A stretch of 64,000 bases of DNA from Frigoriflavimonas asaccharolytica (GTDB taxonomy: Bacteria; Bacteroidota; Bacteroidia; Flavobacteriales; Weeksellaceae), in the NCBI RefSeq assembly GCF_013294015.1, contig NZ_JABSNO010000001.1:1-64000 (forward strand), read 5' to 3'. Positions 35,161 through 39,292 of the stretch are shown here, one piece after another. Made by a program: the position numbers and the translations under genes. The notes below the pieces were generated by a model that did not search any database, had not been told where the DNA came from, and worked only from the letters and a program-made list of their open reading frames with translations. The stretch's first letter is position 1; the number at the start of each line of letters is the position of its first letter.

Positions 35161-35994
35161 TCATTTCACAGGATAGTGAATCACTTTATCAATCTCGATA
35201 GGATTATTTTCTCTACGAACATTTTCCTGATCTTGCTTTTCAAGACTTTTTAATTGGTCTTTGCTCGTGATTTTTATATTATTGTAAGAATAACTGCTGT
35301 TCGGATTGTCATCAAATTCTAACCTAAATTCTTTAAAAGGATCATTATAATCTTCCAATTTCTTCTTTTGAAAGGTTTTAAAATTAACTTCCAATGGTTT
35401 TTCTCCTCCATAATTTTCTATAAAACCTTTGGTGTCAAAAGTTTCTGCGAAGGTTTTAGATTCTACCATAGAATAAATATATTGGCCTTTTGAATCTTGA
35501 ATTTCAAATATTAAACCGGGTAAACCTCGGAATTTATAGGGTCCTTCGTTGTAGGGAATATCTTTGCAAAACCATGCCGTCCAAAATCTCCCGCCGAAAT
35601 TTGTGGTAGCTTTTTGCAGTTGGTATTTATCAATTGTTTTGGTTTCGTTGGTGAGTTTCCATTTCATTGGATCATCAGATTTATAGGCAAAAACCTCTTC
35701 CAACATTTCGTAATTTCTATTTTTAAAAGTATTGCGTTCTCTGGTTACAATATTTTGAAAACCCCACGTTTGATAGCCAAAATTATCATTCGCTTTGTTG
35801 ATGGAATCCATTCTTAAAAGATCATACTCATAAAATTTCACCTCTTCCGGATTGATATCCAAAACCATATTGATTTTTTCGTAATTTGCGGACGTAGAAT
35901 CTAATTTAAACTGTAATTCATACACAAAACGCTGGGTTTGAGCGGAAGAAAGGAAGCCGAAAAGCAAGAAAATGAAGAAATTTATTTTTAGCAT
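35161..35994 (-). CDS. GLPGLI family protein
   Basis: This 277-residue secreted protein has a signal peptide (MLKINFFIFLLFGF, cleavage near SSAQ) and the defining GLPGLIFEIQD motif near residue 160. This is the TIGR01200 family, common in Bacteroidota and of unknown function, likely periplasmic or outer-membrane associated. I prefer ATG 35994 to the upstream start at 36018, which would overlap the preceding gene and lengthen the signal unnaturally. A porin-like gene lies immediately upstream. Confidence 0.88.
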   Translation of the reverse strand: MLKINFFIFLLFGFLSSAQTQRFVYELQFKLDSTSANYEKINMVLDINPEEVKFYEYDLLRMDSINKANDNFGYQTWGFQNIVTRERNTFKNRNYEMLEEVFAYKSDDPMKWKLTNETKTIDKYQLQKATTNFGGRFWTAWFCKDIPYNEGPYKFRGLPGLIFEIQDSKGQYIYSMVESKTFAETFDTKGFIENYGGEKPLEVNFKTFQKKKLEDYNDPFKEFRLEFDDNPNSSYSYNNIKITSKDQLKSLEKQDQENVRRENNPIEIDKVIHYPVK

Positions 35995-36017
35995 AAGTAA
36001 ATTGATAATTAATTGCA

Positions 36018-36497
36018 CTAATCCGCTATTACAACCGTGGGCATATTCAACGTAAAATTCAAATTAAAACCTTTTAATTCTTTACCATTTATGCCACTTT
36101 TATCAAAAGAAAAAGCGTAACCTGCTGATAAATCTACTATTCCAAAAATGCTGATGCCGGCTTTTGGTGCAATGTATTTATTTGTGATTTCTGCTCCTGC
36201 CAACAAATAATAAGAATGTTTGATATCTACATTTCTTTGCGTATTTACCAAAATATCTCCTTGTACTTTCGGCAAAGCAGCAAATTTTCCATTGACGACT
36301 CCAAACAATCCGGAAGCTCCCAATCTAAAAATAAAATCGTCGTTTTTTAGGAATAAAAGTTTACCACCAACTTCTGCAAAACTAGAATTTTGGTATTCGT
36401 ATCCCGCAGTTATCAAAGTGTGTGTGGTCAATTGAGCTTTTGTGCCGATGCTTGCAAAAAAGAATAATATAAATAAAGGAAAGTATTTTAAGTTCAT
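36018..36497 (-). CDS. Putative small outer-membrane beta-barrel protein
   Basis: This 159-residue protein has a signal peptide (to about residue 21, TKAQ) and alternating-residue strands such as HTLITAGYEYQ, FIFRLGASGLFGVV and SYYLLAGAEIT. It ends in a short non-aromatic tail (VVIAD). It is probably a small outer-membrane barrel or barrel-like periplasmic protein. I do not recognise a specific family. It is followed by the GLPGLI gene in the same orientation. Confidence 0.65.
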   Translation of the reverse strand: MNLKYFPLFILFFFASIGTKAQLTTHTLITAGYEYQNSSFAEVGGKLLFLKNDDFIFRLGASGLFGVVNGKFAALPKVQGDILVNTQRNVDIKHSYYLLAGAEITNKYIAPKAGISIFGIVDLSAGYAFSFDKSGINGKELKGFNLNFTLNMPTVVIAD

Positions 36498-36698: not shown

Positions 36699-37979
36699 CT
36701 ACAAATCAAACGCTTTTTTCACATCTTCTACTCTATCTAATTTTTCCCACGTGAAAAACTCTAAATCTTTCAAAGTCAATTCATTGTTTTTCCCTTTGTT
36801 GAAGGTTTTATCTGCAGTCACATAATCTCTTCCCATGTGTCCGTAAGATGCAGTTTCTTGATAGATTGGGTTTCTCAATTTTAGATTTTGCTCTATTGCA
36901 AATGGACGAAGATCAAATAATTCCATCACTTTCGTAGCAATTTCGCCATCGCTTAATCCTGTTTTGGAAGTTCCATAGGTATTCACGAACAAACCACATG
37001 GTTTTGCAACACCAATTGCATAAGAAACTTGCACCAAAACTTCGCTTGCAACTCCTGCCGCAACTAGGTTTTTCGCAATATGTCTTGTTGCGTAAGCAGC
37101 AGATCTATCTACTTTTGATGGATCTTTTCCAGAGAATGCGCCACCACCATGTGCTCCTTTTCCACCGTAAGTATCTACGATTATTTTTCTACCCGTCAAA
37201 CCTGTATCTCCGTGAGGACCACCGATTACAAAAATTCCTGTTGGGTTGATGTGGAATTGAATTTGATCGTTAAACAATCTTTGGATTTCTTCTTTTTGTT
37301 GTGCTTTAACTCTTGGAATTAGAATTTCCACGATATCTTTTCTAATTTTCGCAAGCATTGCTTCTTCACTTCCAAAATCGTCGTGCTGTGTAGAAACCAC
37401 GATAGAATCTATTCTTACAGGTTTATGATCGTCAGAATACTCAATTGTAACTTGAGATTTTGCATCTGGACGAAGATATTTGATGGCATCATTATCTCTT
37501 CTCAAAATTGCCAATTCTTTCAAAATGGTATGCGCAAGATCTAAAGCCAAAGGCATATAATTTTCGGTTTCGTTGGTTGCATAACCAAACATCATCCCCT
37601 GATCTCCTGCACCTTGTGCATTTGCTTTTGCTTCAAAAGATTCATCTTCCGTTTTTCTATCAACACCTTGGTTGATATTTGGAGATTGCTCATGAATTGC
37701 AGATATTACACCGCAAGAATCTCCATTAAACATGTATTCTCCTTTGGTGTAGCCAATTTTATTGATGACGTCTCTTGCAATTTGCTGTACATCTAGATAA
37801 GCTTCAGATTTTACTTCCCCAGCAAGAACAACTTGTCCTGTGGTAACTAAAGTTTCGCAAGCAACTTTTGAATTCTTATCATACGCTAAAAAGTTATCAA
37901 TTAAAGCGTCTGAAATTTGATCTGCTATTTTGTCTGGATGTCCTTCTGAAACAGATTCTGATGTGAATAAATAAGACAT
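36699..37979 (-). CDS. metK: S-adenosylmethionine synthetase
   Basis: This enzyme makes S-adenosylmethionine from methionine and ATP. The 426-residue product begins [17 protein letters not shown], the family's N-terminal ATP-binding segment. It also has [12 protein letters not shown] (about residues 118-129), [12 protein letters not shown] (about 258) and [16 protein letters not shown] (about 279). I use ATG 37979; the longer frame upstream runs into the leader RNA. The leader carries a probable SAM-II riboswitch, so the product most likely represses its own synthesis. An inverted-repeat element and terminator follow the gene. Confidence 0.97.
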
Positions 37980-38022
37980 ATTTCTATTGTTTTTTATTAT
38001 TAAATATAATGGGAAAACGGGC

Positions 38023-38033
38023 ACTGATTGCAA
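38023..38033 (-). promoter_or_regulatory. Anti-aptamer segment in the metK leader
   Basis: On the minus strand this segment reads TTGCAATCAGT. It is the exact reverse complement of ACTGATTGCAA inside the upstream aptamer (38087-38077). Pairing of the two would dissolve the aptamer core, giving a simple on/off switch 44 bases before the metK ATG. Confidence 0.6.
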
Positions 38034-38054
38034 TAGAAACGGAAAGATAAATTT

Positions 38055-38104
38055 GTTTTAGCTTTTTTTCAAGAGGTTGCAATCAGTTCAAATTATTCCT
38101 CGGG
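38055..38104 (-). promoter_or_regulatory. Probable SAM-II riboswitch upstream of metK
   Basis: The minus-strand leader reads CCGAGG, then AATAATTTGAACTGATTGCAA, split here as AATAATTTGAAC and TGATTGCAA. These are followed by CCTC, TTGAAAAAA and AGCTAAAAC. This order matches the SAM-II (metA motif) aptamer: a short P1 stem (GAGG with CCTC), the conserved loop ATTT..AAC.G.ATTGCAA, and the 3' pseudoknot strand GCTAAAA. Transcription should begin only a few bases before it. Its position in front of metK fits SAM sensing. The call rests on manual motif comparison only. Confidence 0.72.
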
Positions 38105-38117
38105 TAATTATCGTTGG

Positions 38118-38149
38118 CAAATTTAAGCACATTATTTTACACTGACAAA
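38118..38149 (-). promoter_or_regulatory. Promoter of metK
   Basis: TAAATTTG at 38125-38118 and TTTG at 38149-38146 on the minus strand are 20 bases apart, a near-perfect Bacteroidota housekeeping promoter. The predicted transcription start, around 38111, lies just before the riboswitch aptamer. Confidence 0.75.
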
Positions 38150-38168
38150 CAAATTTTTGTCATAAAGA

Positions 38169-39116
38169 TTATTGTGGTTTTATGTTCACAAAATCTTCGG
38201 TTGCCTGGTAAAAATTCAATTTTTGTTTCATAGATTCTTGAATGTGCGTCTTCAATTCATCTATGATTTTTTGTTTGTATGTTGGCTTGTAATATATAAG
38301 ACTTATTTCTCTGTAAGGATGAGGTTTTCTAAAACGAGAAATTTTATTTTTTTGTTCTTTATTCAGTTGTTCTATTGCTAATTCTGGTAAAATACTGATA
38401 CCACCAACTTCATCTACCATATGAATAATAGTATTCATATTTGAAGCTAGAAAATCTAAATTTTTTGGTTTCAAAGAATTTTCTTTTAATTGACAAATAT
38501 TTTCAAATTGCGTTTTCAAACAATTGCCTTCTTCCAAAAGCCAAACTTTATCTGTATTGATATCTTCTGGACTTACAAAAGAATCTTTGTCTTCATTGAT
38601 TCCTGAAGAATACAACATCAACTCTTCGTTGAAAATAAAATCTGTATAAAATTCATTTGCAGATTCATAAGGTGTAGCAATAATTCCTGCGTCTAATTCT
38701 CCAGATTTTAAAGCTTTGATAATGCTATCAGTCGTCATTTCTTTCACTGCCATCTCTATTTCTTGGTTCTCGCCTAGAAATTTGAAGATTTCATTAGGCA
38801 AAATATACGTAGAAACCGTAGGAATAATGCCGATATTTATTTTCCCACCAATGATATTGTTGAGTAGATTTGCTTTATTCCGAAGTTCATTTACTTCATT
38901 GGTGATGGTTTTTGCGTGTTCTACAATCTGAATACCAATATCTGTAGTTCTGATTGGATGCGTGGTTCTATCAAAAATTTTCAAATCTAGCTCGTCTTCC
39001 AATTTTTGAATCATTGCGCTTAATGTTGGTTGCGTGATGAAACAGGATTGCGCGGCTTTGCCAAAATGCTTGTGGCGATCTACGGCGATTAAATATTCTA
39101 GTTGTTGAAGGTTCAT
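38169..39116 (-). CDS. oxyR: Peroxide-sensing LysR regulator OxyR
   Basis: This is a LysR-type transcription factor of 315 residues. It has an N-terminal winged helix-turn-helix (MNLQQLEYLIAVDRHKHFGKAA, split around residue 20; QPTLSAMIQKLE) and a periplasmic-binding-protein-like sensor domain. With the ATG at 39116 the two cysteines in EEGNC and ENICQL fall at exactly 199 and 208, the positions of the peroxide-sensing pair in Escherichia coli OxyR. This supports both the start and the function. It activates antioxidant genes after disulphide formation. Its 3' end is close to the metK promoter. Confidence 0.93.
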   Translation of the reverse strand: MNLQQLEYLIAVDRHKHFGKAAQSCFITQPTLSAMIQKLEDELDLKIFDRTTHPIRTTDIGIQIVEHAKTITNEVNELRNKANLLNNIIGGKINIGIIPTVSTYILPNEIFKFLGENQEIEMAVKEMTTDSIIKALKSGELDAGIIATPYESANEFYTDFIFNEELMLYSSGINEDKDSFVSPEDINTDKVWLLEEGNCLKTQFENICQLKENSLKPKNLDFLASNMNTIIHMVDEVGGISILPELAIEQLNKEQKNKISRFRKPHPYREISLIYYKPTYKQKIIDELKTHIQESMKQKLNFYQATEDFVNIKPQ

Positions 39117-39292
39117 GTTATTTGTGCTATCTATTACAAATGTACAAATTAATTCGTATTTCAAATAACTGGCAGACTGCGGATTTAGATGGAGAATAAA
39201 CGAATTGCCAATATTATTTATAAATAATATTGCTTAATACTTGGATTAATTCAAATATTTTAAATAAATGATCTCAATCAAGCTATTGAATT

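Follow-up and report, generated by a model that had tools for sequence, protein, structure and literature searches.

A SAM-II long-loop riboswitch before metK of Frigoriflavimonas asaccharolytica and a candidate switch for a start without a Shine-Dalgarno sequence

How might a riboswitch shut off translation where there is no Shine-Dalgarno sequence to hide? Most mRNAs of Bacteroidota lack such sequences, and gene control by riboswitches in this phylum is little described in the searchable literature. We analysed a stretch of 64,000 nucleotides from Frigoriflavimonas asaccharolytica (the window; coordinates count from its first letter), in which the metK leader suggests a specific answer, open to test at single-base level: the A-rich region ahead of the start codon may be paired. 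A first-pass annotation had read this leader as a SAM-II-like aptamer followed by a strand complementary to it, which together would form a switch simpler than the usual occlusion of the ribosome site.

The metK leader and its aptamer

The metK gene, encoding methionine adenosyltransferase, occupies 36699-37979 on the minus strand (ATG at 37979; TIGR01034, 506.2 bits, cut-off 309.4). Its leader is bounded upstream by a LysR-type ORF ending at 38169. This ORF (38169-39164, minus), directly upstream of metK and on the same strand, has OxyR as its best NCBIfam model, with 201.4 bits, under the cut-off of 329; the second ORF downstream of metK (35161-36018, minus) encodes a GLPGLI family protein (TIGR01200, 154.2 bits, cut-off 50). 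A -7 box, TAAATTTG (38118-38125, minus), matches the flavobacterial consensus TAnnTTTG, and the TTG of a -33 box (38146-38148, minus) was read from the sequence 20 bases before it; a TTGTCA at 38148 (minus) was also listed by the consensus scan that looked for terminators. The promoter was recognized by eye at this spacing of 20, and a pattern with 19-base spacing misses it. Because the sigma-A consensus TAnnTTTG is reported at -12 to -5 (PMC9723704), we placed the predicted transcription start near 38113. The aptamer follows from 38107, so that the proximity of aptamer and flavobacterial promoter proposed in the first-pass annotation is borne out.

The annotation had also listed SAM-II core elements in order before metK and had suggested a covariance search. 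The minus strand contains every one of these elements, and cmscan at gathering thresholds assigned 38048-38107 (minus) to the SAM-II long-loop aptamer RF01726 with 56.7 bits, above the gathering score of 44, over model positions 1-60 of 60. This was the sole Rfam match in the whole window. Alignment with RF01726 and with 67 relatives showed the hallmarks of the family, that is P1, with its 5' strand GAGG (38098-38101, minus) and 3' strand CCTC (38073-38076, minus), and the conserved core ATTTG..GATTGCAACC..GCTAAA, whose 3' strand is GCTAAAA at 38056-38062 (minus). The gene downstream, a SAM synthetase by TIGR01034, fits the metK context of the family. The aptamer itself is not novel in kind but a further member of an established family. 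One element deviates: P2a, a CUG/CAG pairing beside GCTAAA that we read from the alignment and not from a structure of the RF01726 family, is paired in 92.5% of cells among the 67 relatives, and the window has CUG/CAA instead (38084-38086 and 38053-38055), leaving two of three pairs.

RF01726 was found in 202 of 296 genomes and 71 of 91 genera of the order, and in 308 of 320 genomes and 29 of 33 genera of the family, with the window's genus represented by itself only. We fetched 231 stretches for RF01726, from 131 of the 202 order genomes with a match (mostly the top of the list) and from 100 further genomes of the family, and 229 of them showed a metK start motif, the exceptions being L205, at a contig end, and L252, with no metK motif. 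Seven loci (L039, L043, L058, L060, L062, L072 and L074) have a far longer linker joining GCAACCTC to GCTAAA, which is presumably what the name of the family refers to as the long loop; six of them, all but L060, retain a downstream TTTAG strand.

Other SAM riboswitches occur nearby or in the same role. The window's own genome also has an S-box (SAM-I) riboswitch, RF00162 with 81.1 bits, at G000:C25:51124-51229 on the minus strand, which corresponds to L314 2325-2430. An ORF 62 bases downstream of it looks like the N-terminal portion of a methionine synthase of the MetH type. With RF00162 preceding this MetH-type ORF and RF01726 preceding metK, one genome employs SAM-I and SAM-II for neighbouring steps. 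A 2007 survey reported no species with both classes (PMC2258182). In three loci of family f11 (L015, L027 and L029), the two lie back to back on opposite strands, 66 bases apart, where SAM-II serves metK and SAM-I faces away, in L027 before a MetH-like ORF; three of four f11 genomes tested carried RF00162. L040 and L057, in turn, are metK leaders with a SAM-I/IV (RF01725) in the place of SAM-II. Different aptamer classes serve metK in related bacteria.

A strand complementary to the aptamer core

Downstream of the aptamer, the strand TTGCAATCAGT (38023-38033, minus) is complementary in 11 of 11 positions to ACTGATTGCAA (38087-38077, minus), an aptamer core segment that is mostly invariant in the 67 relatives, and ends 43 bases ahead of the metK ATG. 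The exact 11-base match described in the first-pass annotation was thereby confirmed; when the downstream stretch was shuffled with its dinucleotides preserved, 122 of 20,000 shuffles contained an aptamer complement of at least 11 bases. We considered whether the CAGT of this strand might substitute for the degraded CAA in P2a, and rejected the idea because the strand is not adjacent to GCTAAA. The CAG of P2a is also missing in Planobacterium (L032) and in a Chryseobacterium MAG (L033). Predicted anti-aptamer duplexes amount to -24.1 kcal/mol in L033, -21.3 in the window and -15.1, a weak value, in Planobacterium; with L033 stronger and Planobacterium weak, the loss of P2a shows no simple trade-off with anti-aptamer strength.

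For comparison, 311 loci were gathered, yielding 277 parsed metK leaders with an aptamer. Among the 34 left out, 27 are metK leaders without RF01726 by cmscan, two of them with RF01725, and were used as a control, L088 and L205 are short at a contig end, L052, L175 and L252 carry RF01726 yet fail the letter pattern (L252 is also without a metK motif), and L189 and L207 fail the letter pattern. The L239 leader is identical to that of L032. Related genomes share ancestry, and the pairing and covariation counts below are not tree-aware. A run based on the length of the exact complement gave p <= 0.05 in 44 and p <= 0.01 in 20 of 179 parsed leaders, with one locus (L055) misparsed; being blind to G-U pairs and mismatches, it was replaced by duplex energies. 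Two of the 277 leaders were too short for that test (n = 275). In 174 of the 275 leaders (p <= 0.05), 101 of them also at p <= 0.01, the aptamer/downstream duplex had a better energy than duplexes with shuffled downstream stretches. Support at p <= 0.05 was spread over families f1 (101/141), f11 (23/27), f7 (15/24), f3 (11/15) and f8 (6/6), as well as five of eight leaders from six other families. By the same test and threshold, the strand was not evident in f15 (0/6) and in most of the named set (13/48), which holds more distant Bacteroidota.

What is retained is complementarity, not the letters of the strand: the exact 11-mer is not conserved across relatives, and the attacked aptamer segment shifts by clade. 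In f1, few leaders have a strand against the TTTG+2 element, and the targets are GATTGC and GCTAAA. In f11, the target is GATTTGGC, with a complement of its TTTGGC in 24 of 27 leaders, and in some other groups it is GATTTGAC. Leaders that do carry a strand against the TTTG+2 element have letters there that follow those of the aptamer in 31 of 35 cases (GC-GC 26, AC-AC 5, mismatched 4). These sequences suggest that the platform's target inside the aptamer moved between families while complementarity was kept.

To look within the family, we used an alignment, A1, of the 67 distinct sequences among 73 leaders that carry TTTAGT or belong to the window, out of 142 family leaders. CTAAAA/TTTTAG pairs in 99.5% of cells in these 67 leaders, which were selected for carrying that strand; the window is without the TTTTAG strand of the other rows. 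The G of GATTGC lies opposite U in 36 leaders and C in 22, and is unpaired in 9. RNAalifold, which is incapable of displaying mutually exclusive folds, returned essentially the GCTAAAA/TTTTAGT helix alone. The first-pass annotation had proposed to look in relatives for conservation and for covariation in both aptamer and anti-strand. The first part held, with a conserved aptamer and complementarity in the 174 leaders; as to the second, the anti-aptamer helix showed no covariation above shuffles within A1. This absence is expected where one side of a helix is fixed by ligand binding.

A helix over the metK start

Side-by-side reading of the family leaders brought out a second complementarity. 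The U-rich stretch TTTCTATTG (38031-38039, minus) is complementary in nine of nine positions to CAATAGAAA (37981-37989, minus), which forms the A-rich initiation region (positions -2 to -10) and is separated from the ATG by a single base. The first-pass annotation did not report this complementarity, and its range leaves out the pre-ATG strand. The TTG at 38033-38031 is common to TTTCTATTG and the anti-aptamer strand, and because both helices need it, they are mutually exclusive. An exact match of at least nine bases to the pre-ATG strand arose in 222 of 20,000 shuffles; the 11-base and 9-base matches arose jointly in 3 of 20,000.

Folding predictions agreed with two alternative states. The minimum-free-energy fold of the leader is the anti-aptamer hairpin (-19.7 kcal/mol, z -2.19). 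In the ligand-free ensemble, the anti-aptamer helix had a probability of 0.98 and the start-covering helix of 0.00, with positions -12 to +3 open at 0.61-0.73. To mimic SAM binding, we barred the aptamer stretch from pairing, which changed these values to 0.00 and 0.85-0.90, respectively, and lowered the openness to 0.22-0.26. The two exclusive folds proposed in the first-pass annotation are thus supported as predicted folds. Across 276 leaders (one of the 277 was too short), the mean loss of openness was 0.129 versus 0.034 in shuffled sequences, with 90 of 276 at p <= 0.08. Over 140 bases, the anti-aptamer fold (-19.7 kcal/mol) is favoured over the start-covering fold (-7.5 kcal/mol) by about 12 kcal/mol, with the aptamer's own energy uncounted. 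In this model, the gap implies that SAM would have to win during transcription, and the decision is probably kinetic.

Taken by itself, the window gives modest values for the start-covering helix (p 0.025 by duplex energy, 0.040 in a fixed-stretch energy test), which by duplex energy reached p <= 0.05 in 57 of 275 leaders. It is strong, with means of -8.2 to -13.3 kcal/mol, in genus groups g3, g4, g92, g105, g113 and g96. Counterpart helices are TTTCTTTTG/CAAAAGAAA in g3, g105 and g96, TTCCTTTT/AAAAGGAA in g4 and g113, and TGTGTGTTTT/AAAACACACA in g9. We compared native pairing with cross-genus swaps in 31 groups (29 genera and two named loci, with at most 12 leaders per group; the Planobacterium group, L032, duplicates a g111 leader). 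Native pairing beat the swaps on both sides (<= 0.05) in g1 (the window), g3, g4, g92 and g102, five of the 31 groups; at <= 0.10, it did so on one side or both in 12. In g2, the largest genus, pairing was slightly above swaps (fractions 0.21 and 0.19), and the swap test did not reveal the helix in g98, g108, g114, g6, g112, g94, g101, g104, Planobacterium and others. A strict strand test found runs of at least seven in 54 of 88 leaders, compared with 25% for cross-genus swaps.

In the fixed-stretch test, p <= 0.05 was reached by 48 of 142 aptamer leaders of the family and by 15 of 135 other aptamer leaders, which is near background. None of the 27 control metK leaders without RF01726 reached this threshold, and neither did the window's ORFs beyond 2 of 38, one of which is metK itself. 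Because controls and outside-family leaders stay near background, we consider the helix a trait of part of the window's family.

This restricted distribution would suit a switch that consists of the anti-aptamer strand alone, with a bulky leader hairpin, present or absent, as its output and a start that is not occluded. The strand is indeed the commoner of the two features (174 versus 57 of 275 leaders at p <= 0.05), and a recognizable start-covering helix is missing in many groups of the swap test. We nevertheless regard this reading as unlikely, since it leaves aside the strong helices in the six groups named above, the advantage of native pairing over swaps on both sides in g1, g3, g4, g92 and g102, and the paired changes described next; moreover, it is not evident what a hairpin that stops 43 bases short of the ATG would do by itself.

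Paired changes were assessed in A1, which had been chosen on the anti-core strand and not on the start-covering helix, and which omits 69 leaders; these include g9, where the helix is strong, and the greater part of g2, g98 and g108, where it is weak. The A1 structure, P1 and P2a included, scored 0.140 for covariation; shuffles gave 0.090, with none of 500 attaining the native score, and sliding gave 0.062-0.096. Eight pairs showed changes on both sides, a count reached by 10 of 500 shuffles, and helix cells in the original registration were paired at 67% and 80%. However, the pre-ATG strand of g4 was off by a few columns in A1, producing part of these both-sided changes, and we therefore repeated the count with that strand registered by consensus likeness. 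In the 67 re-registered leaders, 85.6% of cells were paired, against a mean of 80.1% and a maximum of 82.9% in 2,000 whole-strand shuffles; when each genus contributed a single row (16 groups), an average of 3.8% of shuffles paired at least as well as the native strands. Perfect pairing at all nine positions occurred in five of the 16 groups (g1 1/1, g3 21/33, g4 11/16, g105 1/1, g96 1/1).

Re-registration lowered the number of start-covering pairs with both-sided changes from seven to five of nine. The telling ones, on which the argument for paired change would rest, are at position 3, where T-A becomes C-G in g4 (16 leaders), g113 and one g3 leader, and at position 6, where T-A becomes A-T in the window and one g3 leader. 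Taken at the level of sequence, covariation lends the start-covering helix modest backing.

A transcriptional output, in which the freed pyrimidine-rich strand would be loaded by Rho or a terminator would form in the SAM-bound state, has a precedent in proteobacterial SAM-II RNAs, which often precede predicted terminators (PMC2258182, PMC1273637), and the downstream strand is C/U-rich and G-poor. We consider it very unlikely, though, given that base pairing immediately before the ATG points to translation and that a simple consensus scan of 37900-38300 returned no intrinsic terminator, so that a terminator between aptamer and metK was rejected; a mixed transcriptional and translational output is possible. 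Finally, that both complementarities simply reflect sequences rich in A and in U, with a working aptamer and neither downstream helix of any consequence, is highly improbable: same-composition shuffles and swaps do pair fairly well (80.1% of cells for strand shuffles) and the single-leader value for the start is modest, but the joint occurrence of both exact matches in 3 of 20,000 shuffles, the cross-genus swaps and paired changes, and anti-strand letters that track the aptamer in 31 of 35 cases are left unexplained by composition.

The proposed switch and its place among known systems

We propose that a SAM-II long-loop riboswitch probably shuts off metK translation at high SAM by occluding a start that has no Shine-Dalgarno sequence; the anti-aptamer strand would act as antisequestor. 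At low SAM, TTGCAATCAGT would invade the aptamer core while emerging from the polymerase, so that TTTCTATTG would be buried in the anti-aptamer hairpin and the A-rich region before the ATG, acting as the ribosome-binding site in this group, would be free for translation of metK. If SAM binds during transcription, the aptamer core would be held and the downstream strand would stay unpaired, allowing TTTCTATTG to pair with CAATAGAAA and to close positions -2 to -10, including A-3 and A-6. Translation in F. johnsoniae is reported to be favoured by adenines at -3, -6, -12 and -13 and by low structure near the start (PMC6847099). We infer SAM binding, this order of events and the translational output; the OFF logic in particular follows from predicted ligand-state folds that cover the start region and from a helix that hides A-3 and A-6. 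Occlusion of the initiation region is the best-supported output because a strand overlapping the anti-aptamer strand pairs with nine pre-ATG bases and shows paired changes in related genera, which speaks against the earlier suggestion of a simpler switch replacing such occlusion.

A broader reading is more tentative and may prove too general: Flavobacteriales might share a platform without a Shine-Dalgarno sequence, in which a U-rich strand picks either the aptamer's A-rich linker together with its core or a Kozak-like A-rich region before the ATG, and in which clades rewire the target (GATTGC, GATTTGGC or GCTAAA) and keep the logic. If this were true, the regulated object would be an A-rich initiation region instead of a Shine-Dalgarno sequence, and the aptamer would bear a decoy for it.

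Compared with known systems, the window shares with RF01726, listed as SAM-II long loops of Bacteroidetes and marine sequences (PMC2864571, Weinberg et al. 2010), its sequence, whole-model structure, phylum and metK context (229 of 231 fetched relatives); it differs in a weakened P2a, and main-text passages of PMC2864571 give no expression platform for RF01726, deferring to Additional File 1. In the openly licensed literature, as far as its accessible text goes, we found no description of a SAM-II expression platform in Bacteroidota, and the SAM-II long-loop RNAs, present in about two-thirds of the sampled genomes of the order, would here gain an explicit one. With the alphaproteobacterial SAM-II aptamer RF00521, the window has in common the aptamer class, the presumed OFF logic and a promoter immediately upstream (PMC1273637, PMC9373788). 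In RF00521, however, the pseudoknot contains the Shine-Dalgarno bases or else a terminator is located downstream (PMC1273637, PMC9373788), and proteobacterial SAM-II RNAs are described as working, or predicted to work, by these two routes (PMC9373788, PMC1273637, PMC2258182), whereas the window would cover an A-rich stretch about 60 bases past the aptamer end. The closest parallel in logic is the general antisequestor/sequestor scheme of riboswitches, with mutually exclusive helices and a ligand that frees the sequestor (PMC2258182). In contrast to that scheme, the window would sequester an A-rich initiation region without a Shine-Dalgarno sequence, and its antisequestor would attack the ligand-binding core of SAM-II and not an outer P1 helix. 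The new part is the expression platform, a variant of the known antisequestor scheme, joined to an aptamer that was already known.
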